From contig DATKSK010000007.1 of the NCBI GenBank assembly GCA_035531755.1, forward strand, positions 58,749 through 122,748: a stretch of 64,000 nt of DNA. The letters run 5' to 3'. Within the stretch, counting starts at the first letter, position 1, and each line of letters begins with the position of its first letter. The translations under genes were made by a program, and so were the position numbers. Under the pieces are notes generated by a model. That model saw only the letters and a program-made list of their open reading frames with translations. It was not told the origin of the DNA and made no database searches. Source of the DNA: Acidimicrobiales bacterium (lineage in GTDB: Bacteria > Actinomycetota > Acidimicrobiia > Acidimicrobiales > UBA8190). Positions 3,022 to 64,000 of this stretch are shown here, piece after piece.

Positions 3022-5025
3022 GTGACCGACGCGACGCTCGAGCAGCTCGGGATCAACGTCATCCGTGGTCTCGCCATGGATGCTCCCCAGAAGGCCGACT
3101 CCGGCCACCCGGGCACGGCCATGGCGCTGGCGCCACTGGCCCACGTGCTGTTCACACGCGTCATGCGCCACGACCCCGCCGAACCGCTGTGGCCCGACCG
3201 CGACCGCTTCATCCTGTCCAACGGCCACGCCTCGATCCTGCTCTACTCCATGCTGTACCTCACCGGGTACGGGCTCACCCTCGACGACATCCGACAGTTC
3301 CGCCAGTGTGGCAGCAAGACGCCGGGACACCCCGAGGTACACCTGACCTCGGGCGTCGAGGTCACCACCGGACCGCTCGGGCAGGGCGTGGGCAACGGCG
3401 TCGGCATGGGCATCGCCGAGCGGTGGCTGCGCGCCCGCTTCGGTCCCGAGGTCGTCGACCACCACACCTTCGTCATCTGCTCCGACGGCGATCTCATGGA
3501 GGGCATCAGCCACGAGGCGGCGTCACTGGCGGGGCACCTCGGCCTGGGCCGGCTCGTCTACGTCTACGACGACAATCACATCACCATCGACGGCCCCACC
3601 GAGCTCGCCTACGACGACGACGTCGTCGAGCGCTTCGAGGCCTACGGGTGGCACGCCGAGAACGTGGGCGAGATCGCCAACGACACCGAGGCGCTCGAGG
3701 CCGCGCTGCGGCGGGCCATGGCCGTCGACGACAAGCCCTCCATCATCACGCTGCGCAGCCACATCGGATGGCCCTCGCCGCACAAGACCGACACCGCCGA
3801 CGCCCATGGCAGCCCGCTCGGCGAGGAAGAGATCCGGGAGACCAAGGCGATCCTCGGCCTCCCCCCCGACGAGCAGTTCTGGGTCCCCGACGAGGTCGTC
3901 GGGCTCTACCGCCGCTGCCTGGCGCGCGGCGAGGACCTCCGCCGGGCGTGGCAGGCACGCTTCGACGCCTGGGACGGCGACAAGGCGGCCTGGGACGCCT
4001 GCCAGCGCGGCCGAGGGCTCGACGGGTGGGCCCACAAGCTCCCCGTCTTCGAGGCGGGGACGAGCATGGCCACGCGCGTCGCGGTGAACCGGTGCATCAC
4101 GGCCACCGCCGACGTGGTGCCGGGGCTCGTGGCGGGCTCCGCCGACCTCACCGGCAACACCGGCATGAAGCTGAAGGACGGGGTCGAGCAGTCGGCCGGG
4201 AACCCGGGTGGGGCGCAGGTGCACTACGGCATCCGCGAGCACGCCATGGGCGCGGCGCTGACGGGCATGGCCCGCCACGGCGGGGTCCTGCCCGTGGGCG
4301 GGACCTTCTTCGTCTTCAGTGACTACATGCGGCCCTCGGTGCGGCTGGCGGCCCTGTCGGAGGCCCACGTCATCTACTCCTGGACCCATGACTCGGTCGG
4401 TCTCGGCGAGGACGGGCCCACCCACCAGCCCGTCGAACACCTCGCCGCGCTGCGGGCCATGCCCGGCCTGCGCGTGATCCGCCCCGCCGACGCCAACGAG
4501 TGCGCCCACGCCTGGCGCGTGGCGGTGGACGGCGAGGGCCCCACGGCCCTGGTGCTGTCGCGCCAGGCCGTCCCCGTGCTCGAGGGGACCGCCGAGGCCG
4601 TCGACGGCGTGGCGCGGGGTGGCTACGTCCTCGTCGACACGCCCGGTGACGCCGACATCGTGCTGATCGGCACCGGCTCAGAGGTCGCCGTGTGCGTCGG
4701 CGCGGCGCTCCTGCTCGCCGGCAAGGGTGCCGAGGGCGATGGCGGGCCGCCCGTGCGGGTCCGGGTGGTGTCGCTTCCCTCGTGGGACCTGTTCGCCGCG
4801 CAGGACGCCGACTACCGCGACGGGGTGCTGCCGCGCGGGCTCCCCCGTCTCGCCGTCGAGGCGGCGGTGTCGTTCGGTTGGGAGCGCTACGCCGACGACG
4901 TCGTCGCCATCGACCACTTCGGCGCGTCGGCCCCCGGCGCCGAGGTCCTGGCCAACTTCGGCTACACGCCGCAGAACGTGGCCGCCCGGGCGCGTGCCCT
5001 GCTCGCCCGTAGCCACGGTGCATGA
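3022..5025 (+). CDS. tkt: Transketolase
   Basis: This thiamine-diphosphate enzyme moves two-carbon units between sugar phosphates in the non-oxidative pentose phosphate pathway. At 667 residues it is full length. Visible landmarks are the early SGHPG, FILSNGHASILLY near residue 75, the TPP/Mg motif SDGDLMEGISHEAASLAGHL near 155-175, and GLGEDGPTHQPVEHLAALRA near 460 in the pyrimidine domain, followed by the C-terminal transketolase domain. It is the first gene of a same-strand run with tal, pgi, gnd, zwf and pgl. It also needs thiamine diphosphate, part of whose synthesis is encoded at 29431-32482. The GTG start is set by the -10 hexamer 6 nt upstream. Confidence 0.97.
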   Translation: MTDATLEQLGINVIRGLAMDAPQKADSGHPGTAMALAPLAHVLFTRVMRHDPAEPLWPDRDRFILSNGHASILLYSMLYLTGYGLTLDDIRQFRQCGSKTPGHPEVHLTSGVEVTTGPLGQGVGNGVGMGIAERWLRARFGPEVVDHHTFVICSDGDLMEGISHEAASLAGHLGLGRLVYVYDDNHITIDGPTELAYDDDVVERFEAYGWHAENVGEIANDTEALEAALRRAMAVDDKPSIITLRSHIGWPSPHKTDTADAHGSPLGEEEIRETKAILGLPPDEQFWVPDEVVGLYRRCLARGEDLRRAWQARFDAWDGDKAAWDACQRGRGLDGWAHKLPVFEAGTSMATRVAVNRCITATADVVPGLVAGSADLTGNTGMKLKDGVEQSAGNPGGAQVHYGIREHAMGAALTGMARHGGVLPVGGTFFVFSDYMRPSVRLAALSEAHVIYSWTHDSVGLGEDGPTHQPVEHLAALRAMPGLRVIRPADANECAHAWRVAVDGEGPTALVLSRQAVPVLEGTAEAVDGVARGGYVLVDTPGDADIVLIGTGSEVAVCVGAALLLAGKGAEGDGGPPVRVRVVSLPSWDLFAAQDADYRDGVLPRGLPRLAVEAAVSFGWERYADDVVAIDHFGASAPGAEVLANFGYTPQNVAARARALLARSHGA

Positions 5026-5088
5026 ACCGCTGACACCGACCGACGACCGGGCGCTCCGGCGCGACGCGCCCGGTGGGAAGGGAGCACC

Positions 5089-6219
5089 ATGACCAGGCTG
5101 CACGACCTCTACGAGCAGCAGGGCCAGAGCCCATGGCTCGACAACCTGCGACGCGACTACCTGCGCGGCGGGCGGCTGGCCGAATTGGTGGGTGAGGGCA
5201 TCCGGGGCGTGACGTCGAACCCCACGATCTTCGCCAAGGCCATCGAGGCCGGCTCCGACTACGACGAGCAGTTCCGCGACCTCCTGGCGGGCCACACCGT
5301 CGAGGCCGCCTACTGGGAGCTCGTCGTCACCGACATCCGCGACGCGCTGGCGGTGCTGCGCCCGGTGCACGACGCCTCCGACGGCGTCGACGGGTTCGTA
5401 TCGCTCGAGGTGGCCCCGGCCCTGGCACACGACACCGAGGGCACCATCCGCGACGCGCGCCACTTCCACGAGCTCGTGGCCGAGCCCAACCTGTTCGTGA
5501 AGATCCCGGCCACGACCGAGGGCGTGCCCGCCGTCCGGGCCATGATCGGCGAGGGCCGCAACATCAACATCACCCTGCTGTTCAGCCTGGAACGCTACGG
5601 CGAGGTGATCGAGGCCTACCTCGGGGGGCTCGAGGACCTCGTGGCCGCCGGCTCGACCGACCTGTCCACGGTGCACAGCGTGGCCTCGTTCTTCGTGAGC
5701 CGGGTCGACACCGAGGTGGACCGCCGGCTCGAGGCCCTGGCCGCGGCGGCCGCACCGGGCCGGGCCGACGAGATCCTCGCCCTGCGGGGCACCGCCGCGG
5801 TCTCCCAGGCACAGCGGGCCTATGCGTTGTTCCGGGAGCGCTTCGCCGGTCCCCGCTGGGAGGCACTGGCGGCACGGGGCGCCATGGTGCAGCGGCCCCT
5901 GTGGGCGTCCACCTCCACCAAGAACCCCGCCTACCCCGACCTCGCCTACGTGGACACGCTCATCGGCCCCGACACCGTCAACACCATGCCTGACGACACG
6001 ATCGCGGCCTTCCTCGACCACGGCACGCCGAAGCGCACCGTCGACGCCGACCCCGACGGCGCCCGGCGCGCCCTCGAGCGCATCGGGGACGCCGGCGTGG
6101 ACATGGCCGACGTGGCCCGGACGCTCGAGGACGAGGGCGTGGCCAGCTTCAGCAAGTCGTTCGACGAGCTCGTGCAGTCGCTGTCCGACAAGGCCAACGC
6201 CCTGTCGGCGGGCAGCTGA
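5089..6219 (+). CDS. tal: Transaldolase
   Basis: Transaldolase transfers dihydroxyacetone units between sugar phosphates. The 376-residue protein has the N-terminal GVTSNPTIFAKAI motif near residues 38-50, the Schiff-base lysine in NLFVKIPAT (Lys138), and STSTKNPAYPDLAYVDTLIG near 270-288. This is the TalB-like actinobacterial form, longer than MipB-type enzymes. A strong ribosome-binding site (AAGGGAG, 4 nt from ATG) fixes the start. It lies 63 nt after tkt and 9 nt before pgi, so it is almost certainly co-transcribed. In some bacteria tal and this type of pgi are fused into one protein; here they are separate. Confidence 0.96.
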   Translation: MTRLHDLYEQQGQSPWLDNLRRDYLRGGRLAELVGEGIRGVTSNPTIFAKAIEAGSDYDEQFRDLLAGHTVEAAYWELVVTDIRDALAVLRPVHDASDGVDGFVSLEVAPALAHDTEGTIRDARHFHELVAEPNLFVKIPATTEGVPAVRAMIGEGRNINITLLFSLERYGEVIEAYLGGLEDLVAAGSTDLSTVHSVASFFVSRVDTEVDRRLEALAAAAAPGRADEILALRGTAAVSQAQRAYALFRERFAGPRWEALAARGAMVQRPLWASTSTKNPAYPDLAYVDTLIGPDTVNTMPDDTIAAFLDHGTPKRTVDADPDGARRALERIGDAGVDMADVARTLEDEGVASFSKSFDELVQSLSDKANALSAGS

Positions 6220-57512: not shown

Positions 57513-58630
57513 CCGTGGCGGCGGGCACCGGGCGGACGACCGAGACGGGCGAGCCCCTCCTCAGAGCCGAGAACGTCGTCAAGCACTTCCCCCTCGGCTC
57601 GTCCTCCCTCTTCCGACGTTCGAGGGCAGTCGTCCACGCCGTCGACGACGTCACCTTCGACATCCGACGGGGCGAGACCCTCGGGCTGGTGGGCGAGACC
57701 GGCTGCGGGAAGTCGACGCTCGCACGCTGTGTCGCCCGCCTGTTCGACCTGACCTCGGGCAGGCTCGTCTTCGACGGCCACGACATCTCGACGCTCAGCC
57801 GGCACCAGCTCCGTCCGTACCGGCGCCGGATCCAGATGATCTTCCAGGACCCCTACGGGTCACTCAATCCCCGCCGACGAGTGGGGTCGATCATCGGGGA
57901 CCCGTTCGCCATCCACGGGATCGAGGAGGGCGGGGAGCGCAAGAGCAAGGTCCAGAACCTGATGGAGCTGGTCGGCCTGAACCCCGAGCACTACAACAGG
58001 TTCCCGTCCGAGTTCTCCGGCGGCCAGCGCCAGCGGATCGGCGTCGCCCGGGCGCTCGCCCTCCAACCCGATCTGATCGTGGCCGACGAGCCGGTCTCCG
58101 CGCTCGACGTCTCGATCCAGGCCCAGGTGATCAACCTCCTCGCCGCGGTCCAGAGCGAATTCGGGCTTGCCTACCTGTTCATCGCCCACGACCTGTCGGT
58201 CGTCCGCCACGTGAGCGACCGCGTGGCGGTGATGTACCTCGGCAAGATCGTGGAGATCGCCGGCCGCCACGATCTCTACACGCGGCCCCGGCACCCCTAC
58301 ACCAAAGCCCTGCAGTCAGCGGTGCCGGTCCCGGACCCTGATCTCGCCGACAAGCGCCGCCGGATCGTGCTCACCGGTGACGTGCCCTCCCCCATCGTCC
58401 CGCCGCGGGGGTGTCGCTTCCACCCCCGGTGCCCCAAGGCGCAGCAGCGCTGCAGCGTCGAGGAACCGCGGCTCGAGCCTCTGGCGGGTGACCCCCCCGA
58501 CCACGGGGTGGCCTGCCACTTTCCTCTGGCCGACGGCGAAGAGCTCCCCGCCGGCGCCGTGCCGCCCGCCGGCGCGTTCGCACCATCGGCACCATCGGCA
58601 CCGTCCGACACCCTGCCGGCCGCCCCATGA
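57509..58630 (+). CDS. Peptide ABC transporter ATP-binding protein (OppF/DppF type)
   Basis: The 373-residue ATPase has Walker A GETGCGKS (62-69), Q-loop [16 protein letters not shown] near 111-126, signature [15 protein letters not shown] near 170-184, Walker [13 protein letters not shown] near 189, and H-loop FIAHDLS near 226. The C-terminal [14 protein letters not shown] motif again marks the Opp/Dpp class. Its ATG overlaps the OppD stop and its TGA overlaps the next ATG, so four genes are tightly coupled. The C-terminal tail is Ala/Pro/Ser-rich. Confidence 0.94.
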
Positions 58631-59592
58631 CCCAGCGCCTCGCCATCGACGTAGCCGTCGGGGACGGGCTCGGGCCCGTCGGGCCGGCGAAGCGCCCCAT
58701 TGAGGGTCGCAGCCCGTGGAGGCTCGCGTTCGAGCGCCTCCGCCATGACCGCGTAGCCATCGCATCGTCGGTCGTGATCGTGATCATCGCCCTCATGGCC
58801 ATCTTCGCACCCGTCGTGGCGCACCTCGTGGGGCACGGGCCCAACGACCAGTACCGCACGACCGGCCTCTCACCCGAGGGCATCCCCGTCGGGCCCAACC
58901 TCCGGTTCCTGCTCGGGACCGACGAGCTGGGCCGCGACGTCATGGTCCGTGTCTTCTACGGGGCGCGCATCTCTCTCCTGGTCGGGGTGGTGGCCAGCTC
59001 CCTGGCGGTGAGTGTCGGGGTCGTGATCGGCCTGATGGCCGGGTACTTCGGCCGGGTCGTCGACACCGTGCTCACGCGCTTGATGGACGTGAACCTGTCC
59101 TTGCCCTACCTCGTGTTCGCCATCGCCCTGATCTCCGTCGTCGGGCCGAGCCTGCTGATCTCGATCGTCGTCATCGCCTTCTTCTCGTTCGCGTCGGTGG
59201 GCCGCATCGTGCGGGGCCAGGTCCTGTCGATCAAGGAGAAGGAGTACGTCGAGGCCGCCCGGTCCCTCGGGGCCAGTGACGTGCGGATCATGTTCGTCGA
59301 CATCCTGCCGAACGTCCTCGCACCGGTCATCGTCTACCTGACGCTGCTCATCCCGCTTTCGATCGTGTTCGAGGCGACGCTCTCGTTCCTCGGGCTCGGG
59401 GTGGTCCCCCCCACGCCGAGTTGGGGCGGCATGCTGGCGTCGTCGATCGACTATTACCAGGTCGCCTGGTGGTACGTCGTGTTCCCCGGGCTGGGCCTCC
59501 TCGTCACGACACTTTCGTTCAACCTCCTCGGCGACAGCGTGCGCGATGCGTTCGACCCCCGGTACAACCGGTTCTTCGGGACGACGGAGTAG
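58627..59592 (+). CDS. Peptide ABC transporter permease (OppC/DppC type)
   Basis: The 321-residue permease has an N-terminal cytoplasmic stretch, then six hydrophobic segments. LGTDELGRDVMVRVFYGARISLL-type sequence (about residues 96-118) is the OppC/DppC hallmark, and the EAA loop ATPase-contact region is EYVEAARSLGASDVRIMFVDILPN near 208-231. The order is the usual transporter arrangement except that C precedes B. Confidence 0.94.
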   Translation: MTQRLAIDVAVGDGLGPVGPAKRPIEGRSPWRLAFERLRHDRVAIASSVVIVIIALMAIFAPVVAHLVGHGPNDQYRTTGLSPEGIPVGPNLRFLLGTDELGRDVMVRVFYGARISLLVGVVASSLAVSVGVVIGLMAGYFGRVVDTVLTRLMDVNLSLPYLVFAIALISVVGPSLLISIVVIAFFSFASVGRIVRGQVLSIKEKEYVEAARSLGASDVRIMFVDILPNVLAPVIVYLTLLIPLSIVFEATLSFLGLGVVPPTPSWGGMLASSIDYYQVAWWYVVFPGLGLLVTTLSFNLLGDSVRDAFDPRYNRFFGTTE

Positions 59593-59598
59593 CCGGAG

Positions 59599-60558
<960 letters not shown>

Positions 60559-60644
60559 GCATCGCGCCGCGCTCGGTCCCGGCAAGCGACCACGTGCCAC
60601 ACGCCCCGGGCGCGTGGCACGGTCCGGTCCCGACGGCTCGACCA

Positions 60645-62528
60645 GTGTCGGCCCTGGCCCTCAGGGTCGTCCTGGCCCTCGCCCTCGCCCTCGCCCTGGC
60701 GGCGTGCGCGTCGCCTTCGTCGCGCTCGGTTGCTCCCCGCCCGACGGGAGGCACGGTGCGCTGGGGCGAGCAGCCCGGGTCTCCCCCGAATTTCATCTTC
60801 CCGCTCTTGCCGCCCGCCTACTTCAACCTCGCGAACCTCGGACAGTTCCAGTACCTCATGTACCGGCCCCTCTACTGGTTCGGCCAGGGCGGCTCGGGAG
60901 GGCCCGACAGCTCGCGATCGCTCGCCGTTCATCCGACGTTCTCCCGTGACCACACCAAGGCGACGGTGGTCATGCGGCCCTACAGGTGGTCCAACGGCGA
61001 GACGGTGGACGCCACCGACGTGCTGTTCTGGATGAACCTGTTGCACGCCGCCAAGGCGACGTGGGCGGCCTATGTCACCGGCGGCTTCCCCGACATCGTG
61101 ACCAGCGTCGTCGTCGACAGCCCGACCACCCTGACCTTCACGTTCGACAAGGCCTACGGCCCCACGTGGCTCACGGACAACGCGCTCTCCCAGATCACCC
61201 CGCTTCCCCGTGCCTGGGACGTCACCGCCGCACGGGCAGCCGCCGGGTCGGGGGGCTGCTCCGCCGCCGCCTACGGGTCGGGGGACGGTCCGTGCACAGC
61301 CGTGTACCGGTTCCTGTCCGGGCAGGCGGGGTTCGACCCGGCCAACCCGACCGCACCCAACACGGCGTTGTCCACGTACGCCACCAATCCTCTCTGGCAG
61401 GTGGTCGACGGGCCCTGGCACCTGAAGTCCTTCGACCGGGCGGGGAACGTGGTGATGGTCCCCAACCCGAAGTACAGCGGCCCCGTCAAGCCGGCAGTGT
61501 CGAGATTCCTGGAGGTCCCCTTCGCGACGTATGCAGCCGAGCTCCGGGCCCTCGTGAAGAACCGCATCGACATCGGCTACCTCTCGACCCAGTCCGTGAC
61601 GCAGACCACCTCGGACCCGACCGTGGCGGCCGGGAACGACCCGCGGCTGACGGGCTTCGACCTGGTGCCCCTGTACCTGGGGTCGATCAACTACATCGTC
61701 TACAACTTCGCCTCCACCGGAGCCGGAGGCGCGGCAGGGCCCATCTTCTCCCAGCTGTACGTCCGCCAAGCCATGCAGTCCCTGGTCGACCAGCCCCGGG
61801 CGATCCGGAGCATCTTCCATGGCTACGCCTTCCCGACCTACGGTCCCGTCCCGATGTACCCGCGACAGCACAACGACGCGACGAGCGCCGTGCGCCGCAA
61901 CCCCTACCCGTACGACCCCGCCAGGGCCGTTCGCCTCCTCGCCGGCCACGGATGGCGGGTGATCCGCAACGGCACGTCCGTCTGCATGAACGCGGGAGCG
62001 GCCGCCGACGAGTGCGGTACGGGGATTCCCGTCGGCACCAAGCTCGACCTCACCCTGGCATTCGCCAACGACGCGGAGGGCCTCGGCCCGTTGCTGCAGG
62101 CTGAAAGGGCGTCCTGGGAGCGAGCCGGCATCCATGTCACACTGGCGGGCTCGCCGTCCAACAAGGTGATCGACGAGGTGACGGCCTGCGGCGGGACCGC
62201 CCGCTGCACGTGGCAACTCGCCGACTGGGGTGTCGGGTGGTACTTCGTCCTCGACTACTACCCGACCGGTGAGCAGATCTTCGCTACCGGAGCCCTGAGC
62301 AACCTCGGGGGGTACACCGACGCCACCAACGACGCCAACATCATGCAGACCATCGTCAGCGACACCGGTCTCGCCCGGTACCAGGACTACCTCGCGACCC
62401 GGTTGCCTGTGGTGTTCCAACCCGACCCGGCGACGTCGTTGGCCGAGGTGCGCAAGACCCTGCAGGGCACGGCACCGCAGAACCTGCTCCTGGCGATCAC
62501 GCCGGAGGACTGGTACTTCCAGCGGTAG
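60645..62528 (+). CDS. Second SBP family 5 substrate-binding lipoprotein of the operon
   Basis: The 627-residue protein has a lipoprotein signal peptide VSALALRVVLALALALALAA ending at Cys21, coded by a CTGGCC/CTCGCC repeat. The mature part has GGTVRWGEQPGSPPNFIFPL near 34-53 and the family C-terminus, with conserved DPARAVRLLAGHGW near 424. It is only distantly similar to the first SBP by eye, so it probably binds a different ligand for the same permease. GTG 60645 gives a compact signal peptide; GTG 60594 is possible. The stop is close to the bidirectional hairpin before the rRNA genes. Confidence 0.85.
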   Translation: MSALALRVVLALALALALAACASPSSRSVAPRPTGGTVRWGEQPGSPPNFIFPLLPPAYFNLANLGQFQYLMYRPLYWFGQGGSGGPDSSRSLAVHPTFSRDHTKATVVMRPYRWSNGETVDATDVLFWMNLLHAAKATWAAYVTGGFPDIVTSVVVDSPTTLTFTFDKAYGPTWLTDNALSQITPLPRAWDVTAARAAAGSGGCSAAAYGSGDGPCTAVYRFLSGQAGFDPANPTAPNTALSTYATNPLWQVVDGPWHLKSFDRAGNVVMVPNPKYSGPVKPAVSRFLEVPFATYAAELRALVKNRIDIGYLSTQSVTQTTSDPTVAAGNDPRLTGFDLVPLYLGSINYIVYNFASTGAGGAAGPIFSQLYVRQAMQSLVDQPRAIRSIFHGYAFPTYGPVPMYPRQHNDATSAVRRNPYPYDPARAVRLLAGHGWRVIRNGTSVCMNAGAAADECGTGIPVGTKLDLTLAFANDAEGLGPLLQAERASWERAGIHVTLAGSPSNKVIDEVTACGGTARCTWQLADWGVGWYFVLDYYPTGEQIFATGALSNLGGYTDATNDANIMQTIVSDTGLARYQDYLATRLPVVFQPDPATSLAEVRKTLQGTAPQNLLLAITPEDWYFQR

Positions 62529-62614: not shown

Positions 62615-62732
62615 TCCCGGCGACGTCCTACTCTCCCAGGGGGTCGCCCCCCAAGTACCATCGGCGCTGGCGGGCTTAACTGCCGTGTTCGGAATGGGAA
62701 CGGGTGTTGCCCCGCCGCCATGGTCACCGGAA
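62615..62732 (-). rRNA. rrf: 5S ribosomal RNA
   Basis: The minus strand reads as a bacterial 5S RNA of about 118 nt. It contains the conserved loop-A/B words CCCATTCCGAACACGG and GTTAAGC, then GCGCCGATGGTACTTGG and GGGAGAGTAGG. The ends are set by pairing of the terminal stem and are uncertain by 1-3 nt. It is the last gene of the rRNA operon, about 90 nt after the 23S end. Confidence 0.96.
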
Positions 62733-62820: not shown

Positions 62821-63129
<309 letters not shown>

Positions 63130-63863
63130 CGTGTTTCTCCCGTATTACTACGGGCACAGACTATACCTTCACCCTATTTCTAGGGGCCGGCGTGTCATGG
63201 CGTCCGTGAGTGGTCGGATGTTGCTGTGTTTCCTTGACGCCATCCCCTCGCTTCGCTTTGCGAGGAAGTCGTTACAGGGGCACAACACGCCCGTGCTACG
63301 CAGATGTTGCTCGACATCTACGGCGGAGATCCGCTTCGTTTTCGAATAGTTTAGGGTTGCGAAAGCGTCGACTTCGTGCGCTAGTCGCAGGAACTCCTCT
63401 GGGTCCCTCAGCCGTTCGAGCCGAGGAAGCAACAGAAGAGCACGCCGAACGTGTTCTCGTTTGAAGATCACGTACGGCTCCACGGCGGAGAGCAGTTTGA
63501 GGAGTAGTGGCCGGCTCGTGATCGCGAGATCACTCATGCCGGTTCCCCGGTCCCGCAGGTATCCCCCACCGCCGACCAGACACTGGATCATCTCCAGGCC
63601 GGAGCGGGCTGAGGTGCTCTGCGAGAACGAGACACTGGCTCGGATGTCGTACCCGAACCGATACTCCTCCTGCCGGACGAGCTGGAAGTGAATACTTCCG
63701 TCGCCGTCGAGGAATCCTGCAACGTAGGACGCATCCAACGCTCTCAATGTGTTGGCCTTCCCTCGGTATTGCCCTGAACGTACTGTTCGGTTGTGACGCT
63801 CAGGGTTTCACCGATATGAGCCGGTGGGCACCCAGGGATTACTCCCTGGGGACGCAGCTATCT
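63130..63863 (-). mobile_element. Group I intron in 23S rRNA at E. coli position 2593
   Basis: A 734-nt segment interrupts the 23S gene between GAACGT and CGCGAGACAG. It shows group I landmarks. The 5' exon ends in U and forms P1 (ACGU with intron GCGU, 8-nt loop) with a U-G wobble at the splice site. A GUAA-capped 8-bp hairpin is at 63831-63850. CACCG/CGGTG (63809-63826) and CCCTGA/TCAGGG (63772-63805) stems follow. A P7-like pair GACU (63264-63278) with AGUC (AAGGTATAGTC, 63157-63171), a P8-like hairpin at 63247-63264, and a GAAA-capped hairpin at 63172-63185 are present. The last base is G. The intron is visibly less GC-rich than flanking genes. The subclass is not determined. Confidence 0.93.
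63169..63747 (-). CDS. LAGLIDADG homing endonuclease, I-CreI family
   Basis: The 192-residue frame inside the 23S intron has one LAGLIDADG motif, YVAGFLDGDGSI (residues 8-19), so it should act as a homodimer. It parallels I-CreI along its length: Asp16, Gln43 and Lys96 align with catalytic Asp20, Gln47 and Lys98; YLRDRGTGMSDL (63-74) matches YVRDRGSVSDY; LNYSKTKR (132-139) matches LNDSKTRK. I-CreI is 163 residues; the extra 39 C-terminal residues are coded across the 3' ribozyme core and end at the P7 strand. The start is TTG at 63747, 8 nt after AGGGAAGG. The expected role is to cut intronless 23S genes so that the intron is copied in. Confidence 0.93.
   Translation of the reverse strand: MRALDASYVAGFLDGDGSIHFQLVRQEEYRFGYDIRASVSFSQSTSARSGLEMIQCLVGGGGYLRDRGTGMSDLAITSRPLLLKLLSAVEPYVIFKREHVRRALLLLPRLERLRDPEEFLRLAHEVDAFATLNYSKTKRISAVDVEQHLRSTGVLCPCNDFLAKRSEGMASRKHSNIRPLTDAMTRRPLEIG

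Positions 63864-64000
<137 letters not shown>

Follow-up and report, generated by a model that had tools for sequence, protein, structure and literature searches.

On its minus strand, the right end of the window, the whole 64,000-nt stretch of DNA analysed here, covers the final ~440 positions of a 23S rRNA gene of bacterial type. The Rfam model LSU_rRNA_bacteria spans window positions 64000 to 62823 on that strand (model positions 2483–2925, 373 bits), and a gap inside this match measures 740 nt in the window versus 6 in the model. A 5S rRNA gene lies downstream of the 23S gene (62615–62731, Rfam). Peptide-type ABC transporter-like genes, recognized by eye from their translations, adjoin the rRNA genes at 58627–62528; the set comprises permeases at 58627–59592 and 59599–60558 and a substrate-binding-like protein whose frame ends at 62528. 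The interrupted gene is composed as follows:

63864–64000, minus strand: 23S rRNA 5′ exon, partial, with the contig ending here (Rfam LSU match and E. coli mapping)
63130–63863, minus strand: IA-like group I intron of 734 nt that interrupts the 23S rRNA gene after U2593 (E. coli numbering) (exact junctions, E. coli mapping, covarying P1–P9 core, Rfam match of an ORF-deleted sister intron)
63169–63747, minus strand: ORF of 192 aa in L6 of the intron, encoding an I-CreI-group homing endonuclease with a single LAGLIDADG motif (ORF call, Pfam, structure-chain matches, AlphaFold/Foldseek)
62823–63129, minus strand: 23S rRNA 3′ exon, complete to where the gene ends (Rfam LSU match)

Trimming at the conserved exon letters GTTTAGAACGT / CGCGAGACAG yields an insert of 734 nt (63863 to 63130), and BLAST places its junction between bases 2592 and 2593 of the 2903-nt E. 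coli 23S copy. With A2602 as anchor, the junction falls after U2593 in standard numbering, which is the I-CreI site. Trimming and mapping hence returned the same interval and the same insertion point as the original prediction. The joined exons match the pattern GTTYAGAACGTCGYGAGACAGTTYGGT, which is that of the empty site in relatives, and are identical in 18 of 22 bases to the I-CreI site. A 1.8-kb 23S DNA query detected one 23S piece only in the genome to which the window belongs, namely the interrupted one running into the contig end, and the DNA pattern found one occupied L2593 site and no empty one in this genome; because the gene is cut by the contig end, further 23S copies or introns may be missing from these counts. 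Since the sole 23S piece found is interrupted and the L2593 site lies by the peptidyl transferase centre (A2602), splicing would be needed for a working ribosome, barring an unassembled intact copy. In several genomes (the window at 64000; the start of L010, L004, and L005), contigs end at almost the same point of the 23S gene, E. coli ~2452–2467; sequence words common to 23S genes probably caused this during assembly.

The intron RNA can be drawn with the following helices, all read on the minus strand:

63852–63867: P1, exon ACGU (63867–63864) with intron GCGU (63855–63852), U·G at the 5′ splice site (covariation alignment)
63831–63850: P2 hairpin, CCCAGGG/CCCUGGG (five of seven pairs change on both sides, nine rows)
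63820–63824: P3 5′ strand CCGGC, partner GCCGG at 63191–63187 (two of five pairs change on both sides; 45/45 cells paired)
63763–63814: P4 (63814–63810 with 63767–63763) around P5 (63805–63798 with 63779–63772) (covariation alignment)
63749–63757: P6/P6a 5′ strand, partner 63288–63279; the ORF begins right after it, in its loop and beyond (covariation alignment)
63159–63270: P7, GACU (63270–63267) with AGUC (63162–63159) (covariation; same P7/P8 alignment by Rfam in a sister intron)
inside P7: P7.1 (63265–63246), P7.2 (63243–63197), P3′ (63191–63187), and P8 (63185–63172) (covariation alignment)
63139–63154: P9 hairpin CCCGUAGUAAUACGGG (junction trimming and covariation alignment)

Helices P1 to P9 were placed by eye on the window row and then tested on the introns of relatives. 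Across nine rows (the window and L003–L010), 564 of 591 cells are paired and 29 of 67 pairs have changed on both sides; controls in which one strand was slid by 1 to 3 columns gave 34–45% paired cells and 5 to 8 such pairs. The introns of L015 and L019 were added once the structure was fixed, and the resulting eleven rows (the window and ten relatives) have 671 of 714 cells paired (94.0%) and 35 of 67 pairs changed on both sides. Sliding reduced these values to 34–46% and to 5 to 9 pairs, part of this drop being expected from the use of the window row to draw the structure, and 300 shuffles of the eleven-row set reached a mean of 81.8% and a maximum of 83.8% paired, versus the observed 94.0%. 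The U·G pair at the 5′ splice site is present in 9/9 rows, and all 11 introns cut at the exon pattern end in G, which in the window is the base at 63130.

Pairing in the nine rows amounts to 38/54 cells for P6a, 48/50 for P7.1, and 66/72 for P7.2. In the eleven-row alignment, weakly pairing helices are found in L015 (P7.1 0/6, P6a 1/6, P5 5/8, P7.2 7/8), in L009 (P7.1 1/6, P6a 1/6, P5 3/8, P7.2 6/8), and in L019 (P5 6/8, P6a 2/6); these helices are outer or indel-rich and may be misaligned in distant rows, and P1–P4, P6, P7, P8, and P9 are fully paired in all three. The presence of P7.1 and P7.2 between P7 and P3′ is a mark of subgroup IA. From this rule, the intron can be described as IA-like, a class assignment that extends to no finer subgroup.

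The original prediction had looked to a group I covariance match over 63100–63900. No such match was obtained for the window copy, which is absent from the matches to the Rfam group I model Intron_gpI both at the gathering score and up to E 5. An ORF-deleted sister intron, L039 (same place as L010), reached 26.2 bits (E 1e-4) in a laxer scan, short of the gathering score, which is 50; its alignment runs from P1 to P9 with the same P3, P7, P8, and P9. Because the ORF-deleted sister is matched, we infer that the ORF in L6 accounts for the miss of the window copy. In a scan of five loci, none of the L2593 introns of L039, L019, L015, L009, and L006 exceeded the Intron_gpI gathering score, the single match at that score being the L2604 intron of L019. 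The interpretation of the 734-nt insert as a group I intron with a P1–P9 core and an ORF in L6 is thus supported by covariation and by the sister intron, and the case serves as a warning that the Rfam group I model can miss ORF-bearing copies.

The intron ORF starts at a TTG codon eight bases 3′ of the sequence GGGAAGG; start codons at the same place, as judged by eye, are ATG in L003, L007, and L010, GTG in L004, and TTG in L006 and L008. Its product matches LAGLIDADG_1 (Pfam, E 6e-7), and the best natural (unfused) chains of solved structure are I-CvuI (E 4e-17, residues 6–154), I-CreI (E 6e-17, residues 8–146), and I-MsoI (E 4e-15); engineered fused chains of these enzymes score above the natural ones. 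BLASTP identities are 31.7% to I-CreI, 31.3% to I-CvuI, and 34.3% to I-MsoI. Residues D16, Q43, and K96 align with D20, Q47, and K98, the catalytic positions of I-CreI. In an alignment of 43 homologues, K96 never varies, and 90% or more of the sequences retain D16 and Q43. An AlphaFold model of the protein (mean pLDDT 83.3) has I-CvuI as its best Foldseek match (TM 0.90 by target length, rmsd 1.5), with I-CreI entries such as 1bp7 at TM 0.87 by target length. By sequence and predicted fold, the ORF product is a relative of I-CreI, I-CvuI, and I-MsoI. The I-CreI layout with Asp16, Gln43, and Lys96 as active-site residues, which had been proposed from the letters alone, is borne out by these alignments, and the similarity of 63169–63747 to I-CreI reaches far beyond the LAGLIDADG motif. 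Together with the E. coli mapping, the three enzyme matches also uphold the earlier suggestion that the same site and the same enzyme family occur in an actinobacterium and in plastids.

The C-terminal part of the ORF overlaps P6′, P7, P7.1, P7.2, P3′, and P8 of the ribozyme core. Residues 162–192 are predicted to be disordered (pLDDT under 50), lie within the overlapping part, and belong to a tail whose length varies between sister copies; the last ~31 residues, encoded by the ribozyme core, are therefore probably incidental. Comparison of the ORF with that of L003 over 164 codons gave dN 0.10 and dS 0.82, i.e., a dN/dS of ~0.12, and comparisons with L004, L006, L007, L008, and L009 (159–164 codons) gave dN/dS values of 0.22–0.38 at a dS of 0.88–1.31, which is partly saturated; the comparison with L005 covers only 33 codons because the frame of L005 is broken. 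This excess of silent changes fits a working endonuclease, although dN/dS cannot separate an endonuclease from a maturase.

Introns at L2593 in Actinobacteria are patchily spread, and some carry decayed endonuclease genes. The nearest of seven named intron relatives is L003 (Acidimicrobiaceae, 84% protein identity); L006 and L008 are MAGs designated Actinobacteria bacterium, and genomes G122 and G110 carry the same ORF proteins as L006 and L008. The empty L2593 pattern is intact in 19 of 60 nearer genomes and in 213 of 396 genomes of the phylum, both sets including the window's own. The occupied-site pattern occurs in two of the 60 nearer genomes and neither state in 39, presumably genomes without an assembled 23S gene, so that these counts do not represent occupancy rates. 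A protein match was obtained in four of the 60 (own genome included): the window's genome; G005, in which the same intron has shrunk to 371 nt and lost most of the ORF; and G019 and G029, where the weak matches are located at L1931 and the L2593 site is empty. In the phylum set, 23 of 396 genomes (own included) have a protein match. Six of these have it at L2593 (G000, G103, G110, G122, G245, and G318, the last by its 3′ junction only), and a seventh, G104, contains the core of the intron, its junctions being lost to a contig end and a stretch of N; in the remaining 16 the match lies elsewhere in the 23S gene, G128 being placed from a single flank. Decay of the ORF at L2593 is seen in L010/L039 (~125–509, 371 nt), in L019 from G245 (359 nt, most of the ORF gone), and in L005 (broken frame).

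A wider protein search returned 900 relatives at E 1e-3, with 71–100% identity among the 120 matches listed. A search of 50,697 phage records gave no relative at E 1e-5. One locus, L016, which has no 23S match in the E. coli 23S mapping, was considered as a free-standing endonuclease gene and rejected: inspection by eye shows a run of N after the P7/P8 region, followed by 23S-end-like and 5S-like sequence. Likewise, L011 and L012 were rejected as L2593 relatives, being L1931 introns with an empty L2593 site.

It is very likely (probability about 0.93) that the locus holds a probably mobile I-CreI-type group I intron after U2593, predicted to be self-splicing, whose LAGLIDADG product likely cuts uninterrupted 23S sites so that repair copies the intron in. 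This interpretation draws on features of the sequence: the site, the P1–P9 core, the intact ORF with its catalytic residues, the excess of silent changes, and the agreement of the joined exons with the empty site in relatives. Self-splicing would free the intron from the precursor rRNA. Translation of the protein would use either the intron RNA or the unspliced precursor as its message, beginning at the TTG just 3′ of the P6 5′ strand. A LAGLIDADG homodimer would then cut the uninterrupted L2593 site in other 23S genes, and repair of the cut would copy the intron into the empty site. After fixation, the endonuclease gene would decay, as in the sister introns, and the intron would either persist or be lost.

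An intron that still splices and is no longer mobile, its protein being a maturase or functionless, would also agree with the occupied state of the sole 23S piece found and with the ORF decay in the sister copies L010, L019, and L005, and maturase-like activity has been described for the LAGLIDADG protein of a Thermotoga 23S intron (PMC3984707). We consider this unlikely in view of the catalytic residues kept among the homologues, and the dN/dS of ~0.12 to L003 fits a working endonuclease, even if it cannot separate it from a maturase. Far more improbable is an intervening sequence removed by RNase III without rejoining, which would leave a fragmented 23S rRNA. The window copy has no Rfam group I match, as such a sequence would have it, but a covarying group I core from P1 to P9, joined exons that fit the empty site, and the alignment of a sister intron by Intron_gpI all speak for the self-splicing intron, and a break in the peptidyl transferase region would be hard to bear. 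Intervening sequences are known in bacterial 23S genes (PMC11270868); against such an origin here, the site is one common to published L2593 introns (PMC1995217).

With regard to the origin of the enzyme, a quick tree of 62 rows was built, comprising 19 from the window and the loci (eight at L2593 and 11 at other sites), three plastid enzyme fragments, and 40 proteins hand-picked from 240 listed; L005 (broken), L013 and L014 (duplicates), and L016–L018 and L034 (short or not tried) are not among the rows. Enzymes of the same phylum from other sites, 11 in number, split from the 51 remaining rows with an SH-aLRT support of 100. A window-like clade of 19 rows, also with a support of 100, unites the window, L003, L004, L006–L009, L015, and eleven metagenome proteins without a host name. 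I-CreI, I-CvuI, and I-MsoI fall outside this clade, yet on its side of the deep branch, a deep placing that is weak because two long branches meet there, 19 of 58 inner branches are open, and the tree has no bootstrap. Since the other-site enzymes of the phylum are split from the L2593 rows and the plastid enzymes group with the L2593 side, the enzyme appears to follow the insertion site more than the host, a pattern that has been reported for four sites (PMC1995217).

The site and enzyme group shared with I-CreI, I-CvuI, and I-MsoI could also be explained by a recent transfer from an algal plastid into the bacterium. Such a transfer is highly improbable: the window enzyme is ~50–90% identical to the rows of its own clade versus 31–34% to the three plastid enzymes, and none of the plastid rows included in the tree falls within the 19-row clade, a comparison in which few plastid rows are named and eleven clade rows lack a host name. 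Among the 120 I-CreI relatives listed, none is closer in score to the window enzyme than to I-CreI. A broader proposal can be put forward tentatively, with slightly less than an even chance of being correct: Actinobacteria would harbor an old, self-contained L2593 homing-intron lineage, sister to the plastid I-CreI introns and not descended from them, alongside introns near L1923, L1931, L1951, L2500, L2604, and others. The phylum would then be a large reservoir among bacteria, and the organellar introns would have spread from it or in parallel with it.

Among the closest known systems are the plastid 23S intron of Chlamydomonas reinhardtii encoding I-CreI and the I-CvuI and I-MsoI introns, which share the enzyme group, catalytic residues, predicted fold, L2593 site, and an ORF in L6 with the window copy. 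They differ from it in protein sequence (31–34% identity) and in host, and in the window the ORF frame continues through the ribozyme core. The original prediction had placed the known bacterial 23S group I introns at other sites; this part is contradicted by published work, as L2593 introns are known in cyanobacteria (PMC1995217) and in CPR bacteria (PMC11270868). The cyanobacterial introns, reported in 2007 from Synechococcus lividus C1, Synechococcus sp. C9, and Thermosynechococcus elongatus, are 744–748 nt long with LAGLIDADG genes of 159–189 aa, and PMC1995217 argues for transfer between organelles and bacteria. They resemble the window copy (734 nt, 192 aa) in site, bacterial host, and possession of one single-motif LAGLIDADG gene and differ in host phylum, as likened by description rather than by sequence. 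In CPR bacteria, LAGLIDADG_1 inserts occur at 23S position 2593 (23IS12), and 82% of CPR 23S genes hold inserts (PMC11270868, 2024); the likeness, again by description and not by sequence, extends to site, LAGLIDADG_1 gene, and bacterial host, and the difference lies in the CPR hosts.

A search of the open-licence literature turned up no description of group I introns in actinobacterial rRNA, which is a weak negative, and the main text of the review PMC3984707 mentions neither Actinobacteria nor L2593. The site, the enzyme group, and the existence of bacterial hosts were known already, and what appears to be new is the actinobacterial hosts for L2593 introns, by which the I-CreI-type intron gains a further group of bacterial hosts. 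With full, decayed, and empty sites side by side, the phylum offers a natural set for testing the homing cycle, and the proteins add to the relatives of an enzyme that serves as a scaffold in nuclease engineering.

Environmental Actinobacteria have more introns in their 23S genes than are described in the papers found. In two actinobacterial 23S genes, L2593 and L2604 are both occupied, the introns standing in tandem (L009, ~3869–5350; L019, minus strand, ~1234–1830), an arrangement that leaves a 10-nt exon, CGYGAGACAG, which would hold A2602. By its coordinates, the L2604 intron of L019 is an Rfam group I match of 60.4 bits, and among the 2604 and 2657 inserts, group I nature is shown only for this one. 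LAGLIDADG-like frames are present in 2604 inserts of L020, L023, L024, L033, and L034 (junction 2603/2604), and L018 has an insert with a LAGLIDADG-like frame at 2657 plus a break at 2604. Positions at these other sites were counted on the 2903-nt E. coli copy and are therefore about one base off. Further inserts lie at 1931 (L011, L012, L030, and L032), at 1951 (L021, L022, L025, L027, L031, and L035), between ~1894 and 1923 (L028 and L029), at 1922–1931 (L026/L036), at 2500 (L019 and L030), and at 2262 (L019), and several of them hold LAGLIDADG frames. More than one insert per 23S gene is found in L006, L008, L009, L019, L020, L021, L026, and L030, among others.
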